Below are positions 6,701-42,672 of a DNA stretch of 64,000 nt, piece after piece. A program made the position numbers and the translations under genes. Below the pieces are notes generated by a model. The model was not told where the DNA came from and made no database searches. It worked only from the letters and a program-made list of their open reading frames with translations. This stretch comes from Amphiura filiformis (Eukaryota; Echinodermata; Ophiuroidea; Amphilepidida; Amphiuridae): the NCBI RefSeq assembly GCF_039555335.1, contig NC_092628.1, positions 65,737,292-65,801,291 of the forward strand, given 5' to 3'. The number at the start of each line of letters is the position of its first letter. The first letter of the stretch is position 1.

Positions 6701-9700
6701 ATAACGCTTGCCAGTGACATGCATTACATAAAGCACAACTAGCACTTGATGGAGAAGTTGTTGCATTGCTAACTAGCTTTGGGTAAGCAGTGCAGAGCCC
6801 CTTGTATTCTCAAAACAGCATCACACAAAGCTGGAGCAATGCCAACTACTCATGCACAGGAACGTTGTGAATGCGCATTGGCCATGAACGTTGATGACAT
6901 AGTTTTGGTTTCTTTTGCAGAGGATTTCAGGACATCAAAATGGTCAATACTTTTGATGGGAAATAGGGCATGTAGTCCTTGTGAGTCACATTGTTGACCA
7001 TGTACACATCATAAAAGTGCATCCGTTGTAACCCCGATCTTGTAGCTTACTTACATGAGCATACTAACCCAATCTTCAACAGCTGTCTTAAAATTGACAA
7101 AAAGTAATCAAAAACTTTATGATGTGTCTGTTCAGTCATCACTTACAGTCAACAACGTTGTACTTCTTTGATCTTGTCATTGCACCCTTTGTAGGTGCTG
7201 TTGTTGTTGTTATTAAATCAAGAATCAAGTAAAAAAAATTGTAATGCATTGTAGATGCCTTTACTCTTGATATGTTCCAAGGTCCATGATTACATTGTGT
7301 TGGACTGAGACGCTTAAGATGTTTTAGGCACTTATGATATGACACAAATTGGCAAACCATGACTTTTTACTGTTTTCCGCAAAATTTGCTGTTCTTTAAT
7401 TTACTTTATACTGGTAAAAACAAAGCAATGATTTTTTAATTCCCTTGGAAGATTAAATAAGTGATTTTTCATTTTAACACACATATGGATAGCACTTGTA
7501 ATCGAGTCCTAAGGAACCCTATCAGCTTTTATTACATTTGTTGTTTAACATTATATAATTTGGTTCACCTCAAGTTCGGTAGTGATTTGTGCGTATTTTG
7601 CTGGCCACAGTAGTGAATCGTGTGCTTAAAGTTAATTAAGCAGAGCGTACACTCACATGTACAAGGGCAGCAGTTTGTTGGCACGCTTGCGGCGCAACCG
7701 TGAAAAAGCATTGACGTCACTACCGAACTTAAAGCGAATCTATGTATAGAACTATTATTTTCTTGTGCATCAAAGAATTGAAAAGGATAAGAAGAATCCA
7801 TTAGCATTGGAAGGAGTGCCAATTTGGTTTTCTCTTTTGTGGTACTTATTAATATAATATGATTACACATTAGCATATATTTAATATGCAATGCCAAATG
7901 CATTTCTGTTCATACCGATCTACCCCACAAGTTGAAATATATCTTCATAGCTTCCTTCCTCTTATTTAGATTCTTTGATGTCTGTGCACGCTTTGTTGTA
8001 TAGTTTGTCATGTATTCCATGTTTTATGTGTAGTTTGCTGTTATTAATAATAAAAGTTGTATACATTCTGCTTTCATGTAGTTGCTAGTGTCCATGCATG
8101 CTTTGTGTTTCATGTTGTTGTTGTGTATTCATTTCATTTACATTGTGTGGATTTCAGGTTCATAGTGGTTGATATGTGCTAAATATTTCCAATCCAGAAA
8201 GTAATGTGTAAATATATATTTTATTCATATTGCATAGCACAACTTCCGATTCCAAAATTAATTGGTAGCTCAAAGTTTTAATGTGTGTGAAAATGATGTT
8301 TACAGTTGATACCATGAGCAAATTCTCTACAGAATGTCCACATAAAAGTACAAAGTAAATAGACCTCGTAAACTGTAGGTATGAGAATAATTATTTCAGC
8401 GCAATGCGTGTGTAAAATTTCTGTAAATGATTCTTTGGCGCACCAACTGCTGCACGATTTGTACTTGCCAAGCGCACCACGCTCTTTACGCATCAAATTT
8501 ATTTAACACGCAGTTCGTGTGACGCAAATTAAAGCATCAACCCACGATGCCACAGATTTGGTTTGTACTTCTATGTGGACAGACTGTAAAAAGGTTTTCA
8601 TTAAATTTTGATTTTTAAATCAATCTTGTCATACTTTTTATAATATCAAAAATTAAAACACAAAATACTTTGCTGTGACTTTAAAAAATCAAATTAATGG
8701 TTGACATTTCTGAAATAACCTGCTTTGTTTGGAAAAAGATATGTGAAACCTTTCTGGGGACCAAAAAAACACAGTTAACAGTAAACTGTAGGTATGAGAA
8801 TAATTATTTCAGCGCAATGCGTGTGTAAAATTTCTGTAAATGATTCTTTGGCGCACCAACTGCTGCACGATTTGTACTTGCCAAGCGCACCACGCTCTTT
8901 ACGCATCAAATTTATTTAACACGCAGTTCGTGTGACGCAAATTAAAGCATCAACCCACGATGCCACAGATTTGGTTTGTACTTCTATGTGGACAGACTGT
9001 AAAAAGGTTTTCATTAAATTTTGATTTTTAAATCAATCTTGTCATACTTTTATAATATCAAAAATTAAAACACAAAATACTGTGCTGTGACTTTAAAAAA
9101 TCAAATTAATGGTTGACATTTCTGAAATAACCTGCTTTGTTTGGAAAAAGATATGTGAAACCTTTCTGGGGACCAAAAAAACACAGTTAACATTAATGTG
9201 TTTATTATAAAAACATTTTAGAAGTTGCTGCTTTTCTAGAATCAGCATGCAAATTATTAATAGTCATCATAGTACATTACTTGTGGAAACCTCGATGATT
9301 AATTTATTACATGCATGGGATGATGTCACCAGTACATGATTGCATCAAACCTAGCACAGAACTCAAGGTCGTGAACTTCTTGTAATCATTCTAGATTTAC
9401 TGTCACAATCCTTGTACACTTGTTGCTTACGGTGTTGTAATTATATACTGCATGAAAACAGGATAAGGCACTTTATGCAACGTAATCAGCCATAAAGATG
9501 ATAATAATTGGTAATTTGATTCAATTAGCATTCACTGTGGGTGCTATGCACATGTTCCTTCCATATCAAAACGATGCACTTGTTGGCTGCTACATGTGTC
9601 TCATTTCAAATAATAACTAGGAATAAATACCAAGCTCATGTCAAGTGGAGGTCACTTCAAATCATTCCCAAGTGACATAGTTTAGGAAAGTTCTCTATAT

Positions 9701-12700
9701 TCCTATGCTATAGTCATGTGCCTTGGGAATGATTTGAAGTGACCTCCACTTGAGATGAATGTGGCATTTATTCTAAGCTATTTTGGGAAAAAAGAGACAT
9801 GTATAGCAGCCGCGAATATGAATGTACACAATTATCTGAAAAAGGTGGAAATGATTGTAACATAACATAAAAAGATATCCCTAGTGTTTACTTTGTTGAG
9901 AACATAAAATGTTACCTTAGTTAAATAGGGGGTTTTATCTTAAGTTGTAGAGACTTTGATGGTAATATGATGCAACTCCTCAGATGAGGTCACCTACTGA
10001 GGGACATGTTATGTAAACATATATCCATGGGAAGAAATCTTGACAATTGTACTCTTGAAATGTGAGTTGGAATTGGAAACATTTTTGTGTCACTTGTATA
10101 TTTGCCAATCTCAGGATCTGGAAGACAGACTTAGTAGTCAACATCTGCAAAATATGGCAGCACAAATAGAATCTCACAAGAAAGCTATTGAGTCTTTGGA
10201 AACCTCAGCTAAACAAGATAAGATGACAGCTTTGACTGAAATGACAAGAAAAACAACACAGAATTTAGGTATGTAAACTGAGTGCAGGTAAAAGAGTAAT
10301 ATAGGTTGTCGGCCTTTCATCATGTTGTGGCCCGGTACAAATATATTTGTGTGTACACGCTTTAGACAATATGTGCAGGGCACAGCGCATCACGCAACTT
10401 TTATCATGCATTGTCACAGTGTTTTGCGTTTGTACATGAAGGATCAAATGCTGAAGGCACCCAAATAGGCAGGTATATGACATTACAAAGATTACCTCTA
10501 TTGATGGTCGTGTATGAAACTCAAGACCAAATAAACCTTCTGTTTACTGTTCAATTAAAATATTTGAAAACAATAATTTGTATTTTTAAAATATGATGGA
10601 CAGGAATGTCCCTTGATATCGCACTAGACCACTCATGTTTTGCAATAAAGGAATTTTTAAGTTGATAACATATGTCGAAATCTATTTTATTTGGCTAAAT
10701 TTGAATGAAGCTACACAATGTCGAACATCAGATATTGTGTTTTAAATAGATTATTAAACTGTATTCCAAGGATGTCAAGTGCTATAGGGTAAAACTTTTT
10801 ACAAGAAATTGTTGCTGTAAATATGGTAAAACAATGATGCAAAGACACCTTCATGTTCATATGTGCTTTTAGTATGGGAGGATCACACCCTGTAGATATT
10901 ATAACTGACATTTCTTAACCAATTCAGATTAAAGTAGAGCAAAGCTATACATTTCATCTCTTGTCTTAGTATTTTATAACTTTTTATCAAGGTCTGAAAT
11001 GTATTTAGGATATAAAAGGAAATAAGAAAAGAAAAACAAAATATTTTAGGATACACATCTGCCCAACCAACCTAGTCCTAAAGTTGTAGAGGACAACCAA
11101 GCAATTTTGTCCTTGACATTGTTATTCTTACCTAGATGATTATAATTCTTGCAGCTGTGACATTCTATTTCTGCACATGAACTAAAAGTGACTTACCCCG
11201 TATAAGATAAAACATGTATGCACATATATCCATATCAAAAGGATGCACTTGTTGGCTGCTTCATGTAGGAATAAATGCCAGACTCATCTCAAGTGGAGGT
11301 CACTTCAAACCACAGCCCACAGAATTAGAGACAGAGAACCAGGACTCGGTCGCCATCTTGATACAGGCATGGATCAAAAATTGGGGGTATTCGGTTTCCA
11401 TCGGAATGCGCCTGAGGCATTCATTGTCATGCATGCACGACATGGATGATAGGCACATTTGAAAGACGCACTTGATGCGACATGCACGCGATTAGATGCT
11501 TCAGATGAGACGCATTATTGTTTTTGTTCGTCTCCACGCACCGTCGGCAAGGACCCGAATACCCCCAATTTTCTCCCCATAGCTGACGGCGCGATTGTAT
11601 GTGGCGGTATAGGGAGTCCAGGTTCTCCTTCTCTAATTCTGTGGATGAGCCTTATATTTATTCCTAGCTATTATGTAAAGAGATGTGTGTTGCAGCCAAC
11701 AAGTGCATCCTTTTGATATGGGATGTACACATATGATGTACAACCAAAATCAATCTGTCATTAGGCAACATCAATTTTCAAATTGATCATTTTGCATTGA
11801 AATATTGCAAATTGAACATATCAGTCCTCAGATATGTTTATTTCATAGTACTGCTCCAAACAATAAAAATACAAGAAAAGTTTAACACTCCTTATGATGA
11901 TATCAAAAAATCAACTTCGCCGATATCTGACTCATGTAGCCTGATAACTTGGCATGCTTACACTGTCTTGCTTATTTTCTGTTACTTATTTCACACAGAG
12001 AAACTAAAATTAGAACTTAGTCAGAGGCATATGGCTGAGATGGACCAGCTTTCAAGGGCTCATAAAACACAAATGGCTGCTGCTAAAATGGAGCTAGAAA
12101 GAGCAGTGGAGCTTAAAAACCAAAAGGTGAGATCAAATATCCTTGGTTGTGATTTGCACCATAAACCTCTATTAAGGTGTGCGTGGTTGGTGGGTTGGGG
12201 ATAGCTGGATGTTGCTGGGTTGGTAGGTGGGTGTTGAAGTTTATAGAAATATTGAAATTAGAGTAGCAAGTACAGTTTTGTTTTGAGAATAAAATGTGAA
12301 GATGTCTATTACTATCAGCAACATGTCTCATGATTAGTTACTTATCACAAATTCAAAAACAGTCTGTGTAGAAGATACGTACATGTATGTGATGATGGCA
12401 TGAAATTTAATTTTTATCCTTAATTAATAAACATATTATCATCATTATAACACAGGAAAGAGAACATCAGAATAGAATAGAAGACTTTCAAGATGATTTG
12501 AATCACAGAGATAGACACATACAAACCCTGGATGAACAAATAGCTGACATGAAATCCAAAGTGTCAGCTTTGAGAAAAGATTTAGAATTCAAAGGACATG
12601 AAATGCAAAGAATAAAAAGTGATGCTAATGATCAACTCAGGTAAGTTTGCATGCAAAAAATAACTGCTTTGTGAGAAGAGTGAGGCTGGTTACTTGCAGC

Positions 12701-19870: not shown

Positions 19871-20084
19871 AGCAGAGTGAGCAGACAGTACATGTACAAT
19901 GTGATTCTCTCATTTATAATTAGGATTACGTCATTGCCAGAGCTTTGTTTTGTGAGCGGTACAAAGCGTATAAGTCCGCCCACCGCTGTCAATCATTCTA
20001 ATGAACAAATAAACAAGCTCTGGCAATGACGTAATCCTAATTATAAATGAAAGAATCACATTGTACATGTACTGTCTGCTGTAC
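19871..20084. mobile_element. Foldback element with ~75-bp arms
   Basis: Left arm GCAGACAGTACATGTACAAT through AATTAGGATTACGTCATTGC is mirrored by GCAATGACGTAATCCTAATT through ATTGTACATGTACTGTCTGC. The loop is about 70 bases. Weaker pairing (GCGACACTCT / GGAGTGTCGC) suggests the element reaches about 19818-20120. Confidence 0.7.
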
Positions 20085-20185
20085 TAGATGTCTTCCAACA
20101 AGTGCCGGAGTGTCGCGGTCCTGCTTCAATGATCTTCACATAGAGGCACCAAGTCACCTGATGTTACCCTCATTTAAAGGCTTAA

Positions 20186-20884
20186 GGTTGGTCTGAACCC
20201 TGGAATTATGAAAACTTTCGGGCCTCATAACTGCTAAATTATTAGTCTAAAGAATATAAAAGTATACATTTTAGAATGGAAATGACTTGATGAATTCATC
20301 TGTGAGGCCCAATTTGGGCCAAAATGCTCATTTTGGAGAAAATCCTAAAAAGCGGTTTTTTGGCCCAAATTTTTTTAGTGCAACGTAACAAAAAATTGTT
20401 TGGCCAAAAAAAAAAATTTTTTATTGATTTTAAAAACTAGATAAAAATATCTAGGGAGCGTTTTTTCATTTTTTTTGAATTTTGACCAACTTCACCAAAA
20501 ATATTTGAAATTTGGGTAGAAAATCAGGCTTTTTATGATTTTTTGAAAATTTTGCATTTTTGACCATTTTGGTGCAAATTTCTCAAAGTTGGTCAAAATT
20601 CAAAAAAATAAAAAACGCTCCCTAGATATTTTTATCTAGTTTTTAAAATTAATAAAAAATTTGTTTGGCCAAACAATTTTTTTGTTACGCTGTACTTAAA
20701 ATTTGTGCCAAAAACCCGCTTTTTGGGATTTTCTCCAAAATGAGAATTTTGGCCCAAATTGGACCTCACAGATGAATTCAGCAAGTCATTTCCAGTCTAA
20801 AATGTATACTTTTATATTCTTTAGACTAATAATTTAGCAGTTATGAAGCTTAAAGTTTCCATAATTCCAGGGTTAAGACCACCC
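20186..20884. mobile_element. TTAA-flanked foldback MITE family F1, copy A
   Basis: Almost the whole 699 bp is one palindrome. The left arm GGTTGGTCTGAACCCTGGAA pairs with TTCCAGGGTTAAGACCACC at the right, and internal blocks such as CTAGATAAAAATATCTAGGG recur mirrored. TTAA is present at 20182-20185 and 20885-20888, matching the target-site duplication of piggyBac- or Kolobok-type transposons. Second copy at 41532-42208. Confidence 0.8.
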
Positions 20885-20888
20885 TTAA

Positions 20889-23521: not shown

Positions 23522-24373
23522 GTTACGGTATGATAAAGGACTATTAGCGTAAGTTATGCATACTATCCAAATTAAACCTATCATAGCCCTATTTAGCCGT
23601 ACTGAGTCTAGTCCAACACCTTTTTGAGGTGAAAAATGATCAAAATTGTGTAGGCATATGAGACCAAGATAAAAAATTTGAATACTATCCGAACTAAACC
23701 CATCAAGCATAATTCTATAGAGACAAATTTTATCGTGAAAACTGAAGACAAGACCTTTGCATCAATTTGTCCAACTCCCATGTTCAAGTATAAATTTCAC
23801 ACACACACCTCTAGTTGGAATTTTAAATGCCTTCAGCTGCCACTAGGAATCAATGGTCCAATTCTATTCACATTTTTACATACGGTACGGCTCGCTGATC
23901 CCAAATGTATCTGATCAATTATAATTGAACAAACAAATTAATGTCTGTTTTAATAGGGAATTATGTCAGTGAGTAACCCAACTATTACCGTAATATGATT
24001 AAAGGGGGGTAACCCTATTGGTTTTGGATATGGATTGTCTTTAAAATTACATAATAATATCAAATATCGCCCCCTTTATGCTGCTTTGTGAAAAAACGAG
24101 AGCATTTTTAGCGTAAATGTGAATAAATAGCTAAATTTACAATCCAATACCTTGGTATACTTGAATTGCATTCTGGGCAGGCAAGCAACAACAATTCCCT
24201 TTCGTATGACGAATGCTGTACTATGCCCGGCCCGTATTGAACGGTAAATATTTGGGTTTTTTTCGTACCGTTTCAGAAAAAAAGGAAACAAAGTATATTT
24301 CCCCTTGCAATATGTACATTTCAAATGAATGTAAAAAAGTTTGGGTCAAAAATGGAGAGGAAAAAAAACCTTC

Positions 24374-24452
24374 CGACACCGGGTTTTGAACCGGGTACCT
24401 ATAGGTTAAAACACAATGCGCTAACCAATTGAGCCATTTAACCCACTACGTC
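24374..24452 (-). pseudogene. tRNA-like pseudogene or SINE head
   Basis: On the minus strand there is an A-box-like TGGCTCAATTGGTTAGCGCA and a B-box-like GGTTCAAAACCC at tRNA spacing, followed by an oligo-T run. The anticodon stem does not pair well and the acceptor stem fails, so a working tRNA is unlikely. The loop contains TTTTAA, as in Lys or Leu tRNAs. Confidence 0.45.
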
Positions 24453-24889
24453 CATTGTGGAATTTTTATAACTACAGCCTGTCTCATAAAAAATTGGGCA
24501 AGTGAAAAGCGCCCTTTTTGACAATTAGAAAATGCCATTGTGACATGATGTTTACATCAACGTCAAGGGCACAGTCTTAGCTTTCAAATACCGTTTGTTT
24601 TGTTCAATTTGCTTTTTTAAATCTTGAGATATGTTTAGTTAACAACGAAAGGGTAAAATCAAAATTGTGCCACTTGTACTAAGGAATAGGGCTGTACATG
24701 TAATCACTCCCCCCCCCCTCTGGGGTTCGTACATTAGACGCACCAAAATCAGCGCTCTTGCATTATTTTGTCTAATTTCATTAATATTTGTCAAATTTCA
24801 TGAACTTGTCTAAGTTCATTAACCGATAAGTGTGCAATATTTGTTTGTCTTTTAACATGTCTTGAGTGACAAAGATAACATTGGTGACA

Positions 24890-25952
24890 TCCCGCTATCT
24901 CTAAGGTCCGCTATCTCTAAGGTTCGCTATCTCTAAGGTTCGCTATCACTAATGTGTAAAGTCTATGGAGATCAGAATCCCGCTATCTCTAATAGAGAAA
25001 AGGGTTCGCTATACCTAAAAAAAGGTCCGCTACTTCTAAGGTTCGATATCACTAATTTAGAATAAAGTTCGCTAGTTCTAAGGTTCGATATCACTAATTA
25101 TAAATAAGGTTCGCTATCACTAATTTAAAATAAGGTTCGCTATCACTAATTTTGAATAAGGTCCGCTATCACTAATTTATTGAAGGTTCGCTATCTCTAA
25201 GGTTCGTTATCACTAATTCCAATAAAGGTCCGCTATACCTAAGGTTCGCTATCACTAATTTTGTTTCAGGTTCGCTATCCCTAATTAATTAAGGTTCGCT
25301 ATCTCAAGGTTCGTTATCACTAATTTCGATTAAGGTTCAAGCTATACCTAAGGTTAGTTATCACTAATCTTAAATAAGGTCCACTATCTCTAATTTTAAA
25401 TAAGGTCCGCTATCTCTAATTTCAAATAAGGTTCGCTATCTCTAATTTTAAATAAGGACCGCTATGGCGAACCTTATATGAAATTAGAGATAGCGAACCT
25501 TATTTAAAATTAGAGATAGCGAACCTTATTTAAAATTAGAGATAGCGAACCTTATTTGAAATTAGTGATAGCGAACCTTAGAGATAGCGAACCTTAGAGA
25601 TAGCGAACCTTAGGGAAAGCGGACCTTATTTAAAATTAGAGATAGCGAACCTTAGGGATACCGGGATTGTTAAAATTAGAGATAGCGGACCTTATTTTAA
25701 ATTAGTGATAGCGAACCTTAGAGATAGCGAACCTTCAATAAATTAGTGATAGCGGACCTTATTTAAAATTAGAGATAGCGAACCTTATTTAAAATTAGTG
25801 ATATCGAACCTTAGAAATACCGAACCTTTTTCAAAATTAGTGATATCGAACCTTAGGTATAGCGAACCTTTTTCGTAATTAGTGATAACGAACCTTAGAG
25901 ATAGCGAACCTTAGAGATAGCGAACCTTAGAGATAGCGAACCGTAACCATAA
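24890..25952. repeat. Giant palindromic array of the motif GGTTCGCTATCTCTAA
   Basis: About 26 forward copies of a 16-bp unit GGTTCGCTATCNCTAA (24892-25465) are followed by about 22 reverse-complement copies TTAGNGATAGCGAACC (25466-25949). Some units are back-to-back and others carry a 9-10-bp AT spacer such as TTTTAAATAA, giving 16-bp and ~26-bp periods. Variants (GGTCCGC, GATATC, ACCTAA) occur in both arms. The switch point is near 25466. It is not a CRISPR: there are no unique spacers and the orientation inverts. It could fold into a stem of roughly 0.5 kb. Confidence 0.9.
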
Positions 25953-26283
25953 CATTAACAGTATTTACCACGATAAAATCATTTACATGCACATGTATTT
26001 AATTTTACAGCAGAATGTGAAATATATATTTATCTGTTAATTTGTCGCAAGTGGAAAAAGAGAATTATTATACCTGTATCATGATAAGGGACCGTTCACA
26101 AACACTTGTAAGGGGGGCCCAGGGGCTATTTTAGTAAAAAAAAGTCACTGCATGTTAGCAAACGTAAATTCTAAAAGAGCAGCTAGCGGAGACAAGCTTG
26201 AGGGAAGGGGTTGCTGGCAGAGGGATTATATATGCCCTCGAGTTCTGTAAATTTTTCCAAATCACACGTTAAAATCACGCATT

Positions 26284-26508
26284 TTACTGACTCATTTTTG
26301 ACGTTAAAGGAGGCTGAGAGCACATCACTCGGACATACCAAATTGCATGCATTCTGAGTACGAGGAATATAGCCTTAACTGATATCAAATAATTTTGAAT
26401 TTTTGAAATTTGCGATATAATACAAATTTTATGACAAATTATTAAAAAATGATATTTTTGACATTTAACAGTCCTCGAAGTAAAGTTTATCAATCTAATG
26501 ATATACAC
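26284..26508. repeat. Half copy of TTAA MITE family F3
   Basis: Matches one arm of the element at 42213-46309: shared GAGAGCACAT, TTGCATGCATTCTGAGTACG-like and TGATATCAAATAATTTTGAA blocks, then ACAGTCCTCGAAGTAAAG. The second arm is missing. Confidence 0.55.
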
Positions 26509-27029
26509 TTAGTTGAAAATTGATACATGTCTGGTTCACTAATGTATTTAAGTAATTAATTTAATTGACTTGTCATTATTTTTTAATTACCTACAGCTCC
26601 ATGAAAGTATACACTAGGATTATTAATGTCATTAAGTTTATGGTATTGATGGTCAATGATATGCAAAAACGAATACAAAACTAAAAAAAATGCATAAAAT
26701 GCACACAGGTGCCTACATTGCACGAAATATCTGTAAAATGTAATAATAGTAACAAATTTGATTGAATTGTCATTTTTGATAACTCCATAAATAATACACA
26801 GAACCTCTTTATTAAATGTTGAATGCAATGCACACGTGTCCCTACCATCTCTTAACATGTCGCACAGTAGCGTAAAGTTCTCAAAATGTGATAAGATTTC
26901 TGCAACTTAAGTGATGCAAATGTGCAATTAGCATACAAAAGTTGCATACAAATTTCATTGGTGCTCAACTTTTAAAACACTAAGATGTTCAGTCCATAAA
27001 TAGGGTGTTTATTTTCTAAAAACAATATA

Positions 27030-28642
27030 CAGGGTCAGTCAAAAAGGTGCAATAGTGCAAAGAATCCATCTTTAATTTATAACCAGATTGAACTTTTAGG
27101 ATTTAAAACACATGATTATATTCATTAGTGGTTAGTGGCCTTGTATGAAAAAAAAGTAATTAGCACTTATGTTGTTCTGACACATTGTACAGCGATACTC
27201 GATTTTAATGCTTGTCCACGGGACATACTATAAATTTTGAATGTCAGCACACTCTTTGTAAGGTAGAATTGGAACAACTGCCATTTTCTTAACCTCATTG
27301 GCACTGAAGTAGAATGGAGCCCCCAAAGTTTTATTGTCCCTGCTCTTGAGCTGTTTTGTATATACCCTTACATTAAAAATGTTCATTCTCTTTAAAAGAA
27401 TCATACAAATTTATGGGAGGGTTTTTCAAATATAATATAAAAGAAAGGAGCAAGAAAGAATAAAGAAATAGTGAATAAAAAGAAAGAAAAAAAAAGAAAT
27501 GAAACAAGAAAAGGAGAAAGAAAAGAGGGAAGAACAGAAGTAAAAATGAGAAAAGGGAAAAAACCGAAATTTTAGCCGCATACGGGGACTCGAACCCACA
27601 AAAATAAATCATAATAGATTCAAAGTCCAACGCTCTATCCGCTCGGCCACACATCAGCTTACGCAATTGGTTGTCCTCGAAGGGGATATATAATTATAAT
27701 TTGACGCAATGACTTGATTACAATTGCGTCCGCATAATGGCTCTTAGAATAAACACGCATGTCGGCGCTGACATTTTGGACGAACCCGATGGAGAAAAAC
27801 CTCGTTTTTTGCAAAACTAGCTTCAATTTGGAGTGAAAATCAAATGGAATAGCAATTGGCAGAATGTTGAGAAATAATGTAGGTATTCAATTGTCTAAAT
27901 TAACGTCCCATAATCAAGATATCGATAATTTCACAAACCAGCTTTTTCTCAAGCAAATTCTCCAAAATTTTCCCCCAAAACGGGCTTTTAAAATTTAATC
28001 GGTACTGTATTTGGTTCTTCCCCATGGCAACATTATTTCTGTGATCGATTTGTAGTACAATACGAAAAAGAAGAAAACAATCACTCGGCGTGGATTTATA
28101 CGGGGCGCACATTTGAAAAAAAACGTCATGGAACGTGTTTTTTGTCTTGTGAACATGGTGCGTAAAAATGCTTTAAACGAAGGATTTTCAAACTTATTCT
28201 AAAAATTTGTATATAACACACACAAAAATGTTAAGCTACATCCAATGCACCAACATTTCACTCGCTGCGATATTTGATTACTGAGAAAACTCTGTTTTAG
28301 AGAACAACTTTATACGTCTTTTATCGCTTTTTATACGTTTCTTCGTGTAACCTTAAGTAATATTAGAAAGTTAGTTTGAACCGAAAAAATAAATTGAACG
28401 CAAAAATCAACCTTGATTGTGATTTAAGTTAAAGTGTATACAAAGTGTCTTTATTTCGCATTGTGTGGTCTCATTCAAATTACATGGTGCCTTGTGGACA
28501 AAGAGTTAAGATGGGTATCGCCGTAAAATGATTCATAAAATCACAAAAGGTGAATATTGAGTGTGTCATTAATGGGAAAGTTCAACTTGGTTCTTACGTG
28601 AATATTGATTCGTTGACCTATTGCACTCTTTTACTCACCCTG
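27030..28642. mobile_element. Mariner-like element with CAGGGTSAGTMAAA ends, nested
   Basis: The left end CAGGGTCAGTCAAAAAGGTG and right end ACTCTTTTACTCACCCTG are inverted, and TA lies outside each (27028-27029; 28643-28644). This end sequence and TA target are typical of Tc1/mariner transposons. At 1,613 bp it is longer than a MITE, yet no DDD/DDE transposase frame is visible. It carries a purine-rich tract (27430-27560) and a tRNA-like block. Confidence 0.65.
27585..27662 (-). pseudogene. Class II tRNA-like sequence (Ser/Leu-type layout)
   Basis: The minus strand has an A box TGGCCGAGCGGATAGAGCG and a perfect B box GGTTCGAGTCC. The anticodon arm (GGA, CTTTGAA, TCT) is near-paired and would read TTG. 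A long variable region of about 15 nt separates it from the T arm, as in Ser/Leu tRNAs. Acceptor and T stems pair only partly, so it is probably a tRNA-derived relic. Confidence 0.5.
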
Positions 28643-30061
28643 TATATACGTTTAATACCCAAATGATTTGATGTGCTCATCATTAAGTGTCTATGTGTTT
28701 AGTTTAGCGTTGAAAGTGTTCAATTTAGTATTTACCTCTATACCTTTACCTTGTAAGCACCTAGAAGAGTTTAAACCGGCTGATTTCGCATGCATTTAGC
28801 AATTGAAAAAAAACCCAATTTTTTAATAATTTAATTATCATATGGTTAAGCAGTGCTTTTTCCACTGATCTGGACTCTACTAATATATCGCAAATAAATA
28901 AATAATATAGTCTTTGAAGGTTTCCTTGAGCATGTTGAGGAAAACCGCACTTTTAGCCTGTTTCACACTAATTTGGCCATAAGTATGCCTATTGTAAATT
29001 TTGATTATAAAAAAATCCCAATATTGAGCCAGAGGGATTATCAAGCTGCCCCCGTTACCAGGTCTGTATGCCATACAGGCTGCACACTTACTTTTTTTAT
29101 TGGTGTCCCCAGTTGCATAAGCGGCGATGCATCACCGCTCATGAAAATGTTCCTGATGGTCATAATTTTTGACCTGCTTTACTGGGACAATTGAGCAATG
29201 GAGCTGCCCCCACGCCTGTTGCGGATTTTCTCGTCCAGTGGCTTTCCCCCACGAGTGACCGAAAAATTGAGAGGAAAGGGCGTTACCAGAGGCGTTGTGA
29301 GGCAATATTTTGATTTCCCCTGCCAATTGAATGTTTGACTGATCACAACGAATTATAGGATTTCCCGACTAGATTAGTCTTACTTTGTGGAGGAACTTTT
29401 TTTTTTTTTTTTTTCCTTTTATTTTTCGGGCTGAAACTAGTGTAGAAATATTTTAAGCACGGAATTTTAATTATCACTGCACAGATTTATATTCTCACTG
29501 CACGAAATAGCCCCTGGGGGGCCTGATGCAAAAAGGGGGCCCTGAAATTTGTTGACCCTCCCAAGGGGGGGGGGGCCTGAAAAAAATGACCACAAATTTT
29601 CCTGGAAAAATTGAGTTTATATGCTTTTCTATGGGGTTGGCCCATAATTTTCATGTCAAAAAGGGGGGCCCCTGAGGTCTGTAAAGGGGGGGGGGCTTGC
29701 ATCAGGCCCCCTTACAAGTGTGTGTGAACGGTGCCTAAAACAGTAAAACAATTTTGTATTGTTGTGTAATTGATGCATTCTTTTGATTTCACGTAGGAAC
29801 TCTTGATAAACTTGATGCTATCATTGATTTGCATGTACAGCTCTCTTACCTAGTAAAAGTGGCACAATTATTGTGATTTTACCCTTGCGTTGTTAAGTAA
29901 GCATATCTCGAGATTAAAACAAGCAAATTGAACAGAACAAACGGCATGTGAGAGCTAAGAATACGCTCTTGACGTTGATGTAAGCATTATGTCACAACGG
30001 TATTTTCTAATTGCCAAAGAGGGCGCTTTTCACTTGCACAATTTTTTTTTGAGACAGGCTG

Positions 30062-31016
30062 TAAATACGGCGCACCGTCTCCTCAGTAGTTAGTGTAGTT
30101 CACTTTTTTCACAGAATGTGTATGACGCGAAACCAAAGTAGCTGTTGAGGAGACTGTTGATTCGCAATTAATTCCCTACCCAGAAATCCGAAGTAATATT
30201 TTTATTTACAAAATGGTAAAAACCGCTGTGTTTCATGATTTCTCCGGAAATACATCGACTTGGAGCATCAAATTTCAGGATAGTAATATGAAAAATAGTA
30301 TCTATTATGTGATACCGAAACATCATCAACAATGAAAAAAATCGGGGTGGATGATGCTGTCGATCCACGGTTGTTTGATGTATACAGAATTGGCTTCATT
30401 ATTAACTAAATGCCAACTATAGATGGCGCTATTTATCCTAAATCATATTTTTCTATTTTATTTTATTTTATTTTATTCAGCATGTTAAAATGGATACACA
30501 TTACAAACATTATATTGCACTTACAGGTAAAATACATATTATAAACATACAAGAGGTAGGTGATTTGCAACAGGTAGGTGATTAATACTGCCATTAAAAC
30601 AGCTGGAATAGTTGAAACAAGCAACAAGGAAATTTTATAAACATATTTTATCAAACTATAAAAGGAATTATTTGTATTAAAAGCTTGAAAAGGTAATTTC
30701 CAATAACTAAATAGCACCATCAATTTTGTCAATAATAGGCACATTTTTATCCAAAAAAGCTTTTAAAATGCTATAAAAGTGAATAATTTGGAAAAAAGAG
30801 GGGAAAATAAAGTTGCGAATGACTTCAAAGCATTTGTATACATTAGCATAATATCGCTTTTAGCTGTTTAAGCCTAAAATTTGGATGTACATTATGTTTT
30901 GTTTGAAAAACTAATAAATGATCCCATCAAACAACCGTGGATCGGGTTACGCACCTTTAATACTGCCATTAATTGCATCTGGAACATAATCATTGATCAT
31001 TTTCATATTTTGAAAC
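30062..31016 (+). other. C1GALT1 upstream region
   Basis: Between the long-TIR element and the C1GALT1 start. It includes a (TTTTA)n microsatellite at about 30452-30477 and should contain the promoter and 5' UTR, but I see no convincing TATA box or initiator. Confidence 0.4.
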
Positions 31017-31227: not shown

Positions 31228-34200
31228 GTAAGTAAACAAAATCTGAAAACTTTACAGTGGAAAAGTCCTCTTTTATTTAAATTTATTAACATTCAACCGA
31301 AGCCAGGCAAAGCCCAATAGTGTTCAGAGGCTACTAAATTAAATAGATGCCAACCAAATATGACGGGACAGGGATATGGGAGGAGGTCCAATTTTGGTAG
31401 GAGGAAAACCAGAGAACCGGGAAAAAAATCATCATAACAGTGCCTTGAGAACAACAACCTGTGTTGAATTTGGCATCCATTTGAAATAAGTAAACACCTA
31501 CCAAAAAGTAATTACAGGACAAACTCAAAATATATGCAACAAATTAAAAAACTGAAATAGCAAAAACAAACCCAGGTTAATTCTGCAAATTTTCAGGAGC
31601 GTGAGCCCGTAAGATTTGTCATGCCTGGAAACACTCTCTTATGTTGGAGGCAGCAGTTAATCATTTACCGATTTATTCTTTAGTTTTATTGCTCCCTTTA
31701 TTCTTTAGTTTTATTGCTGATATCAACAGAGAAATCATCTATATTGTAAGGTTGAGAAATGAGCATGTTGTGTGGCAATGACAAATGGACATTCTGGTAG
31801 CTGGATAAAAATGTAAATTTTAAATACCGTTGCTTCTATAGAACAGCCAGGCACATATTGAATTAACACGCATTGCTACAATAGAAGCAAAAGTCTTTAA
31901 AATGAAAAACTTTATCCAGCTTTGAATAAAAATCCCATAACTTTTAGGTTTTTTTTAATAGCAGTCTTTCTCTGGTTCCAACCTTGAATAACAAGAAATT
32001 TAGGGTCTATAACTTTAAAAAATTAAAAAATTAAAAAGATTTTAAAAAACCCATAATTGCACCCAAAAAAATGCAATTGCGGCCACGAATAACGTGATCG
32101 CTTTTTGCTCCAGTGCTTATATAAACCTGATGACCACATTGATAATATTGATGCACCTGTTTCCTTGTTCTTTTACCACAGATCAGGATATTCTAGCAGA
32201 TTTGATGTGTTCCAAAGTGAGAGTACTATGCTGGGTCCTGACAAGTCCACACAATTTGTACAAAAAAACCATTCATATCAAAGCAACATGGGCTACACGA
32301 TGTAACAAAATTGTTTACATTAGTTCTGAAGTGGACACTGAATTCCCTACAGTCCGTGTGGAGGCAAAAGAAGGCAGAGAATATTTATGGCATAAAACGA
32401 GACATACTTTCCAATTACTTTATGATAAGTATTTAGATGATGCCGAATGGTTTATAAAAGCCGATGATGATACGTACCTAATACTAGAAAACTTAAGATA
32501 CTTTCTGGCAGGATATAACTCTTCACAACCAATTTATTTTGGTCGGAAATTTAAACCTTATGGTAAACAGGGATATATGAGCGGTGGAGCTGGTTATGTA
32601 ATTAGCAAAGCTGGTGTGCAGAATTTGGCAGAAATTGCATTTAAAAATTCAAAATTATGCAGATCTGCAGAATATCCTGGCGGCGCAGAAGATCTGGAAA
32701 TTGGAAAGTGCCTAGAGAATGCAGGAGTCATAGCAGGGGACTCTCGTGACAAACTTGGCCGTGATAGGTTCCATCCATTTCAACCTGAAGACCACTTAGT
32801 GCCTGGTTCTGTAGATAAAGGGTTTTGGTATTGGCAGTATGTTTTCTACAACACATCAATGGTATGATAGCTTTTGAGGAATTTAAAACAACAAACAAAC
32901 AAAAATAACACACGAACATACTTACTCATTTGTGACACTATCTGGTCCATGGGGGCCAAAGGAGGCATTTTTGAAAATTGAGTTACTGTAATTATTACAT
33001 TATATACAATAGGCTATCATATACTGGAAACACCAAAGGTCTAGCATACTTGGTTCTAAAGTTATGAAGTTTTTTGATATCTATTTCTAAATGTATTGTA
33101 TTGTTTTTTACTCCATAATTTTACCTTTATCTCAGTTTCAAATTTGCCACTTTTGGTCCCCATGGACCAGATCGTGTTACATTTACAATAATTTACCTAG
33201 TTCATTTATTTGAGTTCATTGTAGCAATGCAACATACCACATATATGCAGCATAATTTCAGCATACTGAATAATTACCTATAAAGACTGATCAAAATCCT
33301 ACCTGGGCCTGAATTCACTTAAAGGGCTACCTGAGGGTCATTATTTAATAATAATCCCTAGCCACAAAATCCAGTTCCGAGTTCAATTCCTGGGATAACT
33401 TTTAACTTTTATAATTTAAAGAACAAACCATGTCAAACATTATGTGCACAAGGTATTATTTACATTAATTAAATTCCTTTTCCCTTTATTTTCATTATGA
33501 AATATACCATTGCTATAACTCACAACTGTTTGGAAACAGTTTATTTGAAATAAAAAATTGAGTGTCAATTTCATACTCCACTTTAACTTGATCCATCACC
33601 ACAGGTACCCACTGGGAAATTGAGTATGTGAGCAAACAGTTACCCATGAAATCACACCCTACCATAGTACCTTTATTACAATGAGGGTTGAGTCATTTTG
33701 AGTGTCAATTTCTTACTCCACTTTGACTTGATCCATCACCACAGGTACCCACTGGGAAATTGACTATGTGAGCAAACAGTTACCCATGAAATCACACCCT
33801 ACCATAGTACCTTTATTACAATGAGGGTTGAGTCATTTTGAGTGTCAATTTCTTACTCCACTTGACTTGATCCATCACCACAGGTACCCACTGGGAAATT
33901 GACTATGTGAGCAAACAGTTACCCATGAAATCACACCCTACCATAGTACCTTTATTACAATTGATGAGGGTTGAGTCATTTTGAGTGTCAATTTCTTACT
34001 CCACTTTGACTTGATCCATCACCACAGGTACCCACTTGGAAATTGATTATGTGAGCAAACAGTTACCCATGAAATCACACCCTACCATAGTACCTTTATT
34101 ACAATGAGGGTTGAGTCATTTTGAGTGTCAATTTCTTACTCCACTTTGACTTGATCCATCACCACAGGTACCCACTGGGAAATTGACTATGTGAGCAAAC

Positions 34201-35085
34201 AGTTACCCATGAAATCACACCCTACCATAGTACCTTTAACAGTTGTGAGTTATAACAATGGTATATTTCATAATGAAAATAAAGGGAAAAGGAATTTAAT
34301 TAATGTAAATAACACCTTGTGCACATAATGTTAGGGTTGGACAATTTATTGCTCTTTTAGGCTAATTTTCAGAAATAGCATTGGAATTGAGTTGAGTTAA
34401 ATTGATTAGTCAAGGCACAGGTCTTGCAAACCTGAGGTCCTTGGTTCGATTCCGGGATGAGACCACTTTTCAATTTCAAATTTGCTGCCTTTGGTCCCCA
34501 TGGACCAGATTATGCCACATTTATATTTGTATATTTCATAATGAAAATAAAGGGAAAAGGAATTTAATTAATGTAAATAACACCTTGTGCACATAATGTT
34601 AGGGTTGGACAATTTATTGCTCCTTTAGGCTAATTTTCAGAAATAGCATTGGAATTGAGTTAAGTTAAATTGATTAATCAAGGCACAGGTCTTGCAAACC
34701 TGAGGTCCTTGGTTCGATTCCAGGATGAGATCACTTTTCAATTTCAAATTTGCTGCCTTTGGTCCCCATGGAGCAGATTATGCCACATTTATATTTGTAC
34801 ACTTTGTACAGCTGACTTTGCAAAGCAGGCTATTCTAGACATTCAATTTATTTGTTTCTTTGTGCTTTACTACAGGGTCCAGAATGTTGCTCTGATTACT
34901 CAATTTCATTCCACTATGTAAGTCCGGCTCTAATGTATCAGTTAGAATACCTGATATACCACATGAAACCCTTTGGAGTTGTTGGACATTATACCTGCCC
35001 TGATGAAGCTATACCAATTATGTCCAAACTGATGGATGGAGAAGAGTTCAACAAAGCAGTGGTCAGAGCAGGAGGGCAACGCTAA
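31017..35085 (+). CDS. C1GALT1: Core 1 beta-1,3-galactosyltransferase (T-synthase)
   Basis: Three exons (31017-31227, 32182-32861, 34876-35085) give 366 aa, close to the 363 aa of the human enzyme. The family transfers galactose from UDP-Gal to GalNAc-Ser/Thr in the Golgi, forming core 1 O-glycan (T antigen). It is a type II membrane protein: a short N-terminal tail, a hydrophobic segment at about residues 11-29, then a stem. The catalytic domain (glycosyltransferase family 31) has the metal-binding ADDDTY at 164-169, GYMSGGAGYV at 201-210, EDLEIGKCL at 240-248, GDSRD soon after, and CCSDYSISFHYVSP in the last exon. The ATG at 31017 is chosen because it puts the membrane anchor right after a short basic start. 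Vertebrate enzymes need the chaperone C1GALT1C1; whether this one does cannot be told. Confidence 0.95.
32182..32861 (+). CDS. C1GALT1: C1GALT1 exon 2: catalytic domain
   Basis: 680 nt after TTACCACAG, ending in ATG before GTATGA. Encodes residues 71-297 including the DDD motif and an NSS sequon at 183-185. The open frame extending left to 32094 is intron read-through, not a different start. Confidence 0.93.
32936..33182. mobile_element. Foldback MITE with CTGGTCCATGG arms in C1GALT1 intron 2
   Basis: Left ACACTATCTGGTCCATGGGG is mirrored by CCCCATGGACCAGATCGTGT at the right. Arms of about 40 bp. Half copies of the right arm occur at about 34479-34515 and 34747-34785. Confidence 0.6.
33432..34335. 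repeat. 140-bp tandem array flanked by 100-bp inverted arms
   Basis: Five copies of a 139-144-bp unit (landmark ACAGGTACCCACTGGGAAAT at 33601, 33741, 33880 and 34164, with a one-base variant at 34024) fill 33561-34236. The array is bounded by inverted arms: left ATTATGTGCACAAGGT...AACTCACAACTGTT at 33440-33540, right AACAGTTGTGAGTT...ACCTTGTGCACATAAT at 34236-34332. Entirely inside C1GALT1 intron 2. This looks like a non-autonomous transposon with expanded internal tandem repeats. Confidence 0.8.
34396..34468 (+). pseudogene. tRNA-Ala(TGC)-like relic, copy 1
   Basis: A perfect 5-bp anticodon stem CAGGT/ACCTG encloses CTTGCAA (anticodon TGC), followed by variable AGGTC and B box GGTTCGATTCC. 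The D arm and acceptor stem are not tRNA-like, so it is a tRNA-derived repeat head rather than a working gene. Confidence 0.5.
34664..34736 (+). pseudogene. tRNA-Ala(TGC)-like relic, copy 2
   Basis: Duplicate of the preceding relic (268 bp away) with the same anticodon arm and B box; the T arm reads CCAGG instead of CCGGG. Confidence 0.5.
34876..35085 (+). CDS. C1GALT1: C1GALT1 exon 3: C-terminal segment
   Basis: 69 codons plus TAA after TTTACTACAG. GPECCSDYSISFHYVSP is the conserved double-Cys block; the rest (LEYLIYHMKPFG) also matches the family. A variant poly(A) signal ATTAAA at 35129-35134 follows the stop by 44 bp. Confidence 0.92.
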   Translation, partial: GPECCSDYSISFHYVSPALMYQLEYLIYHMKPFGVVGHYTCPDEAIPIMSKLMDGEEFNKAVVRAGGQR

Positions 35086-35640: not shown

Positions 35641-35707
35641 TAAGATGTTCATAAATATGTAGGAAATAATTTTTCTGACTTTTTTTACAATGGAGAATGC
35701 TGTTCTA

Positions 35708-38700
35708 AACACCTCAAAAGAAATAAGTCCCCCTCTGAACATGTCGTCATAACATCGTAAGGTTTCATTTTGTACCAACAAAACTAACTTTGAAATAATT
35801 ATATGACTGTTTACTAAGTGCTGTGTGAAAATGAGAGATTTCCATGACTTCAGGGCTGACTGAGCCTAAATTGAAGGCAAAAACTGCCCTTTTCAAAAGT
35901 CACAAAGTAGGCCTATGCTTGTCACAAAAGTTGATTCATGGCTTGTTACTAATGGAAAACCCCATGTGTTTGACACGGCAGTTTCACTCCCATTGAAACA
36001 CGATAATTAGGTTTGCCGATTTGTGCGTTCAGTTTTGTTTTCTCCACTGATGAAATACGCACGAAATTGACTAAACGCCACGGCTCGATCGCTGTACTGC
36101 ACGCAATAATCAAGCGGTGCGCCATGTAAGATAAAGTTGCTTTCAAACTCTGATAAAACAGTGCCAAAACAGAAAGCAAGTAAGGAGCCTTATAAGGTAC
36201 ATAATACTCAATGTTTTTGTCATTTATTGGAATAAAACAATGTTTTTAAGTTTGAAATTTTTTTACAATAAAATCACACACAAATTGCATCCTTTCACAT
36301 TGATTTTATTGTTTGTCAAAACATGAAATGTAGAATCAAAGATATTTCAAGACTGACACTTCAATAAACAGTGGGAATGTATGTTACTACAAAATGAGGC
36401 ATGTTATTAACTAACTTTTGAAAAATTAGAACTAGGCCAACAGAATATGAAGAGATATCACTTAATTAAATCACCCTTTTCACTGTTAATTGCGGCGTGT
36501 TTGCATAAACACGCACAAACGACAAGCGATCGCTGCATGCATGCGATGCATGAGTAGGCCTACTGAACACGCATGTTTTACAGCATCTTGTACGCGGACG
36601 CCCAAGAAAGAAATAATCCAAGTCAGAACTCAGTTGTATTATGAAATCCTACAGCATATTAAATAAAAAAAAAAAATTAATCACTTTTACGAAATCCAAC
36701 CCTGGTCCATGGACTGGGCATATTTCAACATACTAGTTTTAGTTCTTTGCATTTGCTGACGCACCGCATGTTGTTGATGCACCGCATACACTGGCCATAT
36801 TCATCATATTACTTAAGCCACGTAATAACATGTAGGCCTATATGCAATGTGTTTATATTATGATAACCAAGAGCTTTTTAACATGTCTTTTCATTCCAAC
36901 AATTTTAGAAACAAAGTAAGGGAACAAAGAAGAAACATAACAAAAATGTTTAATTTGAAATCTCCAAAAATCGGCGAGGGCAGAGACGATAGGCCTAAGT
37001 GTTATTTATTTTACTTGGCCTTAAAACATGTTCAAGTTTTGAATTTGCAAAATCTATCAGAATCACTTTTTTTTTTTTTCGACTCAGAATCACTCTTTGT
37101 TTACAAACATCATTTCCATACAATTGGTTACACACATCCTGACAGTGATCATGACCCATAGTTGACCGCTAATAACCCCAATGTTATGGTACAGGTACGC
37201 GCACATGACAGTCAATGCACTAACCTGACCGCTTGATAACCCCTAGGATAGTACAGATGCGCGCGCATCATGATGTACAAGCACTACAGCATGAGTGTAC
37301 AAAATGTACCACATGCGGTATTAGACAAGTTACAAAATATTACGAGTCAAACACAGTCAGTTTATAAATATTATAAATGTGGTTTGTTTTTATTTTAAAA
37401 TCAATACAAAGGTTTGTTTTTTCTTTGGTTTGTTTTTTGTTTGTTGGTTGTTTGATTGTTGTTTGTTTGCTTGTTTTTATTACTTTCCAAAGCAATGCAA
37501 ATGGAATTCATTGTGTTAGTCACTGTTGACATAATGATTTCATATAGTTTTATTATAAATCACGTGAAGAAAAATAATCTCATCAATAAATGACTAAATT
37601 ATGAAAAGAAGAAAAACTATTAATAAATGCATTTTTATAGACCATGCACAATGTGCTTTTTGTTTGCTTATTGTTTGTTTTATAGAAACTTTATTTTGCT
37701 TTCTTAAATATCTTGGTTACATTTTTGTTTCTGATATGAAATAATTTCTCAATAAGCAAATTGCTTTATAATTCATATTTCCATCTACATGTAAATATAA
37801 ATAAAAGTCCACATAAAAAAATGCATGCTATTGTAGGCCTATTCTTTGAAAAGAAGTGAATTTCCTACCAAGCATGCAAGGCCTTTGTATAGTATTCAAT
37901 CACTGTACAGTTTAAAAATGTTATGAACATTCTGTTGACATTTCACGGGTCTTCATTTCATTAGAAAAATTTTAGAACATAAAATTGTTTTGATAATTTG
38001 TAAACACAAGATTCAAAACTTTGTAAACAAAAATTATATTTAAAACACTTACCAAATGATTCAGCACTTGAACTACTGTCTGTTATATTTCAATGATTTA
38101 TAAGGTATCATGCAGCCTTGAGGATTCCAAACATCCAGAAATGTCTTTCTTCGTGTCAATTTCTTTGAAGACTCTTTGAGGTTATCAGTTTCAAATAATA
38201 TTGTATTTATTATATTGCACATCAACATCGGATGAATTTGTTTAATTTGCCGTTGTATTTATTGTAGCTCTGAAATGAGCTGTATGGAATTTTTCTCTCC
38301 TTTTATAATCCTTCCTTACAAGGAATGGTTGAAACCATTCTAATATTATAACTTTCTAAACCAGTCTCAGGCTTCAACAAAGCTGTCCTGTAATCTCGTT
38401 ATTTTCATTTGTCCCGTTTGTCCAGCAGATATCCAATAAGCCCAATTCTTGTCTTTCTAGATCCTCTGTAAAATTAAAAAAAAGAATAGAAAAACAAAAC
38501 AAACATAAATATATAAAATAGTTAAGAGTCATCTATCTTGATTTAAACCAAGGAAAAAATTATTCATACAATTATCACATACAGTAGACTAGAGCTTCAA
38601 ATGACAATGAGGACAGAAAATAACATGTAGCTGATTTCTATAGATTTTTAAAAAGTAGGGCAGTATATTAATATTTTTTTTAAAAGAAATTAAAACAGAC

Positions 38701-40001
38701 CAAAGTGGATATTCAATTATCATTAGGCCTAGCATGCAAGTTGGCTGCTGCTTGTTGCATCTATAGGCCCAATCACTTGCAAATATGATGCCGAAATTTT
38801 TATTGTAAATTCTATGAATTGATCATTCATGTTGGTATTTCTTCCCAATTCCCAGTTTATTATTAGATGGGCCTAATCAGTTAAACCAGCAAATAAATAG
38901 ATAATATAATAGTTCTATGGGATATCAATAAAGTATAAAATAATAATTTACATCTCAAAACACCAACAACATCATAAAACTTACCGTATGCATATTCCAC
39001 AGTGCACTGAGTGAATATCCCACGCAGCGGTCCTGTTCAGTGAGCTTGCCGGCTTGTCCCCGGAGTGTAGCTGTGTCAGTATGCCTATCTCTTGCCGTGT
39101 TACATGACGCATTGCTACGGCTGCATTGCCGTGCAGATGTTCTTTCTGGTGAAAAATGACCGCACTTTGGCGTTCCGTTCTGATACAAATTGCGATGGCC
39201 TAGAAAAGATTTTGTGTTCCTTGGTTATATTAGGCCCTGTTCCGACTATAGCATGTTTCTCAAGTCTCTGTTGAGGGGACTTAGTAATAATATCGGTGTT
39301 CCAAAACAAGCATCATTGTACAATATGCATCATGACGATGTTTGTGTCATTCGAAGGTTCACAAACAAACTTGATTCCATCAAATTTAGACAAAGCAGAA
39401 TTGACGTCATTTTACCCAAAGACGTAGCACCTTGTAATCTACGGTAATCTTTGATTTCAAGTCATTTTATGCTTTGGTTCACGATTAGATCCCTGTAAAA
39501 TCGGACTCCTATATCCACTGCGCCGATTAGCGAATCCGCTCTGTTGACCGAGAGGGCAATGCCCCGTGCTGAGCCGAGTCAAAGTTGATATCGAACGTAT
39601 GCGGGCGCACTCCATTTTTCTGTTTGGATCCGCCGTGTTGAGTGCAGTTTAAAATCCTCACCAAGTGAACATTTACTGTAATGTGTATCGATTCTTGATC
39701 ATTCAGCCATGCAAATCCCCTTGGTGCAGAGTTCAGCACAGTGAGTTGCAAGATGGTCAGTTCCATTCCTTGTCCCAATACGCCTTGCAGTTAACAAGCA
39801 TAGGCCTACTTTGTGACTTTTGGAAAGGGCAATTTTTGTCTTCAATTTAGGCTCATTCAGCCCTGAAGTCATGGAAATCTCTCATTTCCACACAGCACTT
39901 AGTAAACGGTCATATAATTATTTCAAAGTTAGTTTTGTTGGTACAAAACGAAACCTTACGATGTTATGACGACATGTTCAGAGGGGGACTTATTTCTTTT
40001 G
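35708..40001. mobile_element. 4.3-kb long-TIR element with AACACCTC ends, TA target
   Basis: The left arm (AACACCTCAAAAGAAATAAG from 35708) and right arm (CTTATTTCTTTTGAGGTGTT ending 40001) are inverted over about 225 bp, with high similarity up to GTAGGCCTATGCTTGTC / ACAAGCATAGGCCTAC. TA flanks both ends. The interior (35940-39790) is AT-rich with only short frames; no transposase was recognised. Inserted into a CDC23 exon copy. Confidence 0.75.
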
Positions 40002-40012
40002 AGGTGTTTATC

Positions 40013-40245: not shown

Positions 40246-41531
40246 AGGCCATAAAAGTCCAATTTTAATAGTTTCGCAATTTGAGGGGAAATGGGCCAAA
40301 AACATGCAATTTCCACGATTTCTTACAATTTCAGTCAAAATTCAAAGACTTGGGACAAGTCTAAGCATTCAAAATCTTGAGTATCTGCTAATTTGCTCAT
40401 ATTTTATGTTAATTTCGATAACTGGTTATAGATGTATTAGAAAATATGTTTTCCAACAATTAGAATGCATTATCTGAAATTAGTCTTAGTACAAGTTTTT
40501 GGGCTTGATTGTCACAGCATACCAAAAACACCCTAAAACATATGGTTTTGGCCCTTATGGGTGCACACCGGTAAATAGCTCCCATTGACTTTCTGTACAA
40601 ACAGGGCCCAGGAAAACGTCATTTTCTTGACTCCAGAGCGACTCAGTTCTTCAAAACTTACCTTTTCTGCAAGTCGAAGGTCAGATGAAGTCATCTATTG
40701 TAGAAATTATATACTGAGTCCAGCATTTTTTTCCAGAAAAAGCCGACTAGATCACCCTATAGCCCATACAGCGACGCCACCTTACAAATAGCTTGGTGTT
40801 TCTGAAATGTAACACATTTTGAAAGTTTAGCCAAATTGTAATAAAAAGTCAGATCCTGCTCATTTTTCACAGACAATCTATTTCCCAGGCCTAAATGAGG
40901 ATTAAATATGAATCAGGGCCTAATAGTTGGGTTTTAAGCCTTTTCTGATGGATTTAATTTAGTCGTATTGCACGAATCCTCGTTTTAAACACTGATTTTT
41001 TTCTCCCAGGGTGTAGGAGACTTGTATTTACTGGTGTGCACTCTTATTTCCAAAAATTGGCCAAAAATGAAAATTTGACTTTTATTGCCAGTTAGAACCA
41101 ACTAAAGGATTAGGATTTAGCTTTGTTTCATTTGGCATAAGTTGATAATATTTTTTTAATTCCACAAAATTAGTGCTGTATTTTTCTGGAATGGGAGTAG
41201 TCTGGGATTTGAGTAAATTATGATCTTTCAATCAAGCACAGAGGCAGTTAAAAAAAACCTTATGTTAAAAAAAACATGTATAGTGTAAGATAAAGGAATA
41301 TATACTTAAGTTTTGCTTGGTATCCAAACTAAACCTAACAAGCCCCATCAATAAAGATACAAAAATCCACGGCTTTCATAGATGCATACTGTATTGTGAA
41401 TACTGAGGACTGGCACCAGTTTAAGCATTCCAGATTGTTGTACATGTACATAGTATGATTTTGCATCAATTTGTCCAATTCTAATGCTCAAGTATTGCTG
41501 CCTTAGAATAACACATATCATACAAAAAAAA
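40246..41531. other. Intergenic region with a possible CDC23 first-exon relic
   Basis: On the minus strand, 40694-40662 reads ATG then TSSDLRLAEK, directly followed by GTAAGT. This would suit an N-terminal APC8 exon but is only 11 codons. The rest has short frames only; 41330-41500 weakly resembles 23565-23790. Confidence 0.25.
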
Positions 41532-42208: not shown

Positions 42209-42672
42209 TTAAGGGATGGGGTATGGACGTTTCGACAGTATTTTTTGTGGAACATGAGAGCACATGAGGCATATCGAATTGCATTCTGAATACGAAGAAT
42301 GTCTTTCTGATATCAAATAATTTTTTTTTGAAATCCACGATATAATACGCATTTTATGGCAAATGATTAAAAAATGGATATTTTTGATATTTAACAGTCC
42401 TCAAAGTAAACTTTATAAATCTAATGATATGTACTTTAAAAAGTGTATGTAGCTGGGAAGAAAAGCAGACCAATTGAAAATGTTGACCTTTTGTATTGAA
42501 GATATGGAATTTTTTCCCAAAAACACCAAAAAAAAATTAAAAAAAAAAAAAAAATGTATATCAATAATATGAAAGGTCAAAATTGTCAATTGATCGTCAG
42601 CTTTTCATCCCAGCCACATACACTTTCAGTACATATAATTAGATTTATAAAGTTTTCTTCGAGGACTGTCTA

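Follow-up and report, generated by a model that had tools for sequence, protein, structure and literature searches.

A palindromic array of 16-bp repeats in Amphiura filiformis as a probable foldback transposon

A kilobase of Amphiura filiformis DNA is built almost wholly from one short motif that runs in one direction and then turns back on itself. Is such a stretch a rearranged satellite, an assembly error or a mobile element? We addressed this question in a window of 64,000 nucleotides (64 kb; positions 65,737,292 to 65,801,291 of contig NC_092628.1), to which all positions below refer.

Units and spacers of the array

A 16-bp repeat with the consensus GGTTCGCTATCTCTAA occupies positions 24889–25942 in 25 forward and 22 inverted copies, which bears out an earlier note, made from the letters alone, that had described a one-kilobase palindrome of opposed arrays. 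The forward arm (24889–25455, plus strand) consists of tandem units, typified by TTCGCTATC, with mostly 0- or 10-bp AT-rich spacers, and the unit scan placed the 22 inverted units at 25474–25942 (minus strand). Polarity switches at a 4-nt centre, TATG (25463–25466), where the earlier note had put it (near 25466), and the adjoining units within 25456–25473 are half-degenerate. That note had counted about 26 forward and 22 inverted units. A greedy scan gave 26 forward and 23 inverted rows, the last row of each arm matching at 11 of 16 and 10 of 16 positions, respectively, and overlapping the other at the centre. Our counts leave out this half-degenerate unit of each arm; the inverted count thus stood, and the forward count became 25.

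Units matching at 15 or 16 of the 16 positions (10 forward and 14 inverted) all lie within the array, with none elsewhere in the 64 kb. Outside it, only two sites in the window matched at 12 or more positions, at 11325 (14/16) and 11621 (13/16). We judged these unrelated to the array, as mutually inverted mates with a different core; they are enclosed by inverted repeats (11230–11259 and 11692–11721) in what we take to be a different element at 11230–11721.

Over the 47 units, spacers were absent in 18 cases, exactly 10 bp in 21 and of other lengths in 8. Tandem Repeats Finder reported the array region at several periods, including 16, 26 and 42. Of the 47 steps between units, 39 were 16 or 26 bp long, which with 10.5 bp to the turn amounts to some 1.5 or 2.5 turns of the helix, and neighbouring units fell on opposite faces (mean angle between steps 177 degrees, with a resultant of 0.86). 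This half-turn phasing is weak evidence, because the spacers were probably inherited by duplication. The earlier suggestion of many phased protein-binding copies held in part: binding at many sites is plausible by analogy with known elements, but helical phase was not kept across the whole array (resultants 0.05–0.28).

Conservation within the unit was uneven. It was scored over 46 full-length units; the half-degenerate pair at the centre and a 15-bp unit missing the T of CTAA were left aside. Positions 8 and 13–16 were invariant, the most variable positions were 4, 7, 11 and 12, and position 12 was conserved in only 23 of the 46. Every unit with A at position 12 (16/16) was followed by a spacer, and 19 of the other 31 had none. 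Positions 5–6 read CG in 44 of 47 units, CA in one, as methyl-C decay would give, and AG in two, one of them via a 2-bp insertion. The observed/expected CpG ratio was 1.46 in the element versus 0.54 in the window; in 1,066-bp windows at 100-bp steps it averaged 0.54 (SD 0.28), and the four highest values overlapped the element. High CpG is not unique to it, because windows starting at 27301–27701 reach 1.18–1.34; this second CpG-rich stretch (27301–28766) gave no Pfam match among the frames scanned there. Because duplication of units passes on part of the variation among them, the conservation counts are not independent. Taken together, uneven conservation and CG retention indicate that the unit core is young or else maintained by selection, two explanations that are inseparable on present evidence.

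Element ends and probable foldback identity

An exact 8-bp direct repeat, ATAACATT, is present at 24875–24882 and 25949–25956 (both plus strand). Flush inside its two copies are 10-bp end motifs, GGTGACATCC on the left (24883–24892, plus strand) and GGTTACGGTT on the right (25939–25948, minus-strand reading), which are alike at 5 of 10 positions and each extend a few bases into the outermost unit. The ends read GGTGA and GGTTA, with GG at both. Because the direct repeat is exact and flush outside the end motifs, 24883–25948 is probably a single, discrete insertion of 1,066 bp, judging from its sequence, with ATAACATT as its putative target-site duplication. These limits replace the extent given earlier, 24890–25952. 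Within 24883–25948 there is no open frame of at least 60 codons.

Three features that mark foldback elements by structure are present. Long inverted repeats form much of the element (arms of 580 and 482 bp, which fill all of the 1,066 bp except 4 nt), the arms consist of short tandem repeats whose number differs between the ends (25 versus 22), and an 8-bp target-site duplication, exact and flush, is seen at this one locus. We consider it very likely that the palindrome is a non-autonomous foldback-type (type-2) DNA transposon. Its mobility is unproven, and that reading is based on one 8-bp repeat around a single copy in the 64-kb window; the low agreement of the two end motifs also speaks against it, and we found neither a transposase gene nor a related autonomous copy for it.

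In plan, the element is of a known foldback kind. The terminal inverted repeats (TIRs) of the Drosophila FB and sea urchin TU elements are largely short tandem repeats, with units of about 15 bp and an 8-bp duplication in TU and long arrays in FB as well; our literature search for TU elements found no paper with the term. The available text on Muta1, an active element of Aedes mosquitoes, describes an end motif of 10 bp, then nine tandem copies of a 12-bp repeat set 3–4 bp apart, together with 8- or 9-bp duplications, and terms the element a type-2 foldback (PMC5225508). It also reports 9–15-bp subterminal tandem repeats in 10 of 12 Aedes Mutator-like families with long TIRs (PMC5225508). As described there, Muta1 shares with our element the 10-bp end motif, steps of 15–16 bp and the duplication size, and it has many non-autonomous derivatives. 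By contrast, its TIR is 145 bp long with nine units, and its middle encodes a transposase, whereas the element here has 22–25 units per arm and no middle; and the Muta1 end motif is an imperfect palindrome, whereas in our left motif only the outermost GG/CC can pair. The likeness to Muta1, taken from the available description, is one of plan.

Similar to our element, Tm1 of root-knot nematodes is described, in the text available, as having asymmetric short ends (7 bp), tandem repeats of about 14 bp whose number differs between the ends, MITE-like copies and 8–10-bp duplications in 45 of 53 elements, with ends on average 93% alike (PMC3169594). It differs in having one to nine consecutive units per TIR, the motifs B and D and another unit sequence. 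Tetris of Drosophila virilis is, by the description available, likewise a non-autonomous foldback with an 8–10-bp duplication and tandem repeats in its TIRs, although these repeats are about 220 bp long (PMC4079207). With 22–25 units per arm and no middle, the present element goes beyond the Muta1 and Tm1 descriptions available to us, in a comparison that covered part of the foldback families.

Superfamily, mechanism and alternative explanations

Which transposase could have moved such an element? Mutator elements have 8–10-bp duplications and TIRs longer than 100 bp, and here we found 8 bp and arms of 482 and 580 bp. By analogy with the elements above, we give membership of the Mutator group about an even chance. 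The 16-mers are best read as multiple transposase binding sites and the 10-bp motifs as cleavage ends, as Galileo and Muta1 would suggest. The element would then be entirely TIR, an end motif of about 10 bp being followed by 16-bp units up to the 4-nt centre. The transposase, probably a Mutator-group enzyme acting in trans, would bind the repeated 16-bp units and pair both ends; cleavage would occur at the 10-bp end motifs, and the element would be pasted in with an 8-bp stagger. Unequal exchange or slippage may have lengthened and shortened the array, and this would account for arms that differ in unit number. Because Muta1 and Tm1 are similar in plan, this mechanism is open to testing, and comparing unit numbers among further copies, should there be any, would reveal how arrays expand and what use transposases make of multiple sites. 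The locus is a compact, well-bounded case of a short tandem array apparently carried by a transposon that is nearly all repeats.

Two alternatives are variants of the foldback reading that differ in the transposase. Mobilization by a Merlin (IS1016-like) enzyme instead of Mutator is unlikely, even though the 5′-GG at both ends and the 8-bp duplication agree with Merlin elements, which in the available account start with GG, make 8- or 9-bp duplications and in several cases carry tandem repeats (PMC8101967). Among the Merlin descriptions accessible to us, none features termini with dozens of short units in tandem. We favour Mutator over Merlin because a short end motif with short tandem units is known in Mutator-type foldbacks.

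Membership of the P (Galileo-like) or hAT superfamily is quite unlikely. Elements of both groups are able to make 8-bp duplications. The size of the repeat therefore fits hAT, but hAT ends usually read YARNG, and with GGTGA and GGTTA as the ends we rejected hAT membership. As for P, the foldback form does arise within that group: Galileo of Drosophila has long, internally repetitive TIRs (PMC3688188, PMC3573991), and its transposase domain has been shown to bind the tandem repeats in them (PMC3688188), according to the text available. Against this, the same descriptions assign Galileo, a P-superfamily element, 7-bp target sites and, in one subfamily, a repeat of about 210 bp. The 8-bp repeat here would be compatible with 7 bp plus a chance match, given the one copy.

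Searches for relatives elsewhere were negative within their scope. Exact array patterns of 23 to 32 bases had no occurrence in viral and prokaryote contigs, and blastn of 24860–25970 against 50,697 phage records found nothing; none of these collections is of animal genomes, so these results say little. No Rfam family reached its gathering score in the 64-kb window. Matches to the unit motif as text in the literature, within the text available, were judged to be chance, such as primers.

Another reading is that the hairpin itself is functional, its transcription yielding long double-stranded RNA that feeds small-RNA silencing. The predicted fold energy is −642 kcal/mol, whereas 20 mononucleotide shuffles gave −231 on average; 21 other segments of the window, one of them overlapping the left edge of the array, averaged −254 (lowest −332). 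This predicted structure pairs 83% of the bases of the element, with 419 of its 445 pairs spanning the centre. A transcript of the element would thus be predicted to fold into a hairpin, as had been proposed earlier, but any long inverted repeat would fold likewise, and we regard a function of the hairpin as improbable. We hold a related proposal to be similarly doubtful, namely that the element is an extreme foldback that has kept only binding sites, 47 in number with neighbours on opposite faces of the helix, and acts as a decoy titrating transposase or as a source of silencing hairpins. If this were true, the decoy would soak up transposase, or small RNAs from the hairpin would silence the autonomous parent.

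It is very improbable that the palindrome is a local satellite that became palindromic when replication folded back, without any transposition, and that its 8-bp repeats are due to chance. A single snap-back duplication would also give collinear arms. ATAACATT itself is not rare in the 64-kb window (six forward and four reverse occurrences). We estimated the role of chance in tests that were all devised after the repeat had been seen. Of 50,000 random intervals of the same size, 174 (0.35%) had an 8-bp direct repeat no more than 10 bp beyond the two edges; when 3 bp of slack was allowed, 335 of 200,000 random placements gave 8-bp repeats at a distance of 1,066 bp. Flush repeats at this distance, with no condition on inverted ends, occurred at 5 of 61,900 positions, the element included. 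When an equal offset and 2-bp inverted ends were required, the element itself was the only one of 62,750 positions to pass. Among 13 repeat-bounded intervals compared, the sole other 8-bp direct repeat near the ends was CCTTAAGG (42207/46308), which is self-complementary and belongs to the inverted ends of its own interval; two further intervals had 7-bp repeats that were not flush. In addition, the sequence beyond the 8-bp repeats is not mirrored. The earlier idea of a snap-back duplicated array was thus right about mirrored, collinear arms, but the end motifs and the 8-bp repeat suggest a transposon in its own right.

When aligned from the outside inwards, the arms are collinear and identical at 422 of 471 positions (89.6%), differing at the other 49 and by several unit-sized gaps. 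The 'exact polarity reversal' described before is therefore clean in direction, but the palindrome is imperfect, with gains and losses of units. Only 1 of 5,000 full shuffles of the unit order of the inverted arm aligned as well as observed, versus 10 of 5,000 permutations that preserved which places were taken by short units (up to 17 bp) and which by longer ones, so that the evidence for mirrored order is weaker when length classes are preserved. A first run gave 0 of 500 in both forms; we trust the larger one. Each arm contains a single copy of TTTATTGAA, a 25-bp unit with spacer that stands out from the others, at 25160 and (leftward) at 25758; the two copies are paired in the arm alignment and lie inside the longest perfect inverted match of the element (52 nt). 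Arm collinearity led us to reject independent arrays in opposed orientation, and because the unit number differs between the arms, units must have been gained or lost since the arms were alike. Palindromic reads are a known artefact, but an assembly or read error is scarcely credible here, because the arms diverge, their unit numbers differ and the 1,500-bp flanks are not mirror images (best flank-to-flank match, E 0.97).

Host element and neighbouring repeats

The foldback element is inserted 408 bp inside a 5.6-kb host element (24473–30063) with TIRs of about 230 bp (24473–24703 and 29829–30063; 86%) and a possible TA duplication. Its CAGCCTGTCTC ends face each other at 24475 (plus strand) and 30051–30061 (minus strand), in agreement with the nesting that the earlier note had proposed. 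The other inverted repeat of the host matches only its first 230 bp or so, and an empty site is not demonstrable because this match stops short of the insertion point. Seven of the 16 stop-to-stop frames of at least 60 codons in the host element were scanned, with no transposase match in Pfam. Next to it, 24366–24446 (minus strand) is tRNA-like by eye, with the A- and B-box-like sequence GGTTCAAAACCC, and is perhaps the head of a SINE; ARAGORN did not call it, and found no tRNA in the 64-kb window.

The window contains many transposon-like repeats and, at 32046–32864, an open frame for a Fringe-like glycosyltransferase (Pfam PF02434, E 2.8e-15). The foldback array is not its sole palindromic repeat, because others are present, such as two nearly spacer-less palindromes of about 700 bp (20182–20888 and 41530–42213) that share 91% identity and are oppositely oriented. 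A TTAA-type target is suggested for the first by TTAAGGKTGGTCT at each of its ends; the second lacks an intact outer TTAA on its left. At 33436–34799, a 140-bp tandem array of 4.8 copies (33558–34238) lies between 95-bp inverted repeats (98%) and is followed by a twofold 268-bp duplication (34261–34799). Another tandem array, at 50199–51046, has 6.2 copies of 136 bp with 97% matches. Inverted 217-bp repeats (35706–35922 and 39794–40010; 97%), 3.9 kb apart, are perhaps the ends of a recent element. Small self-palindromes of 185–276 bp are found at 3642–3832, 9585–9811, 19880–20080, 42394–42669, 46568–46757 and 62282–62466.
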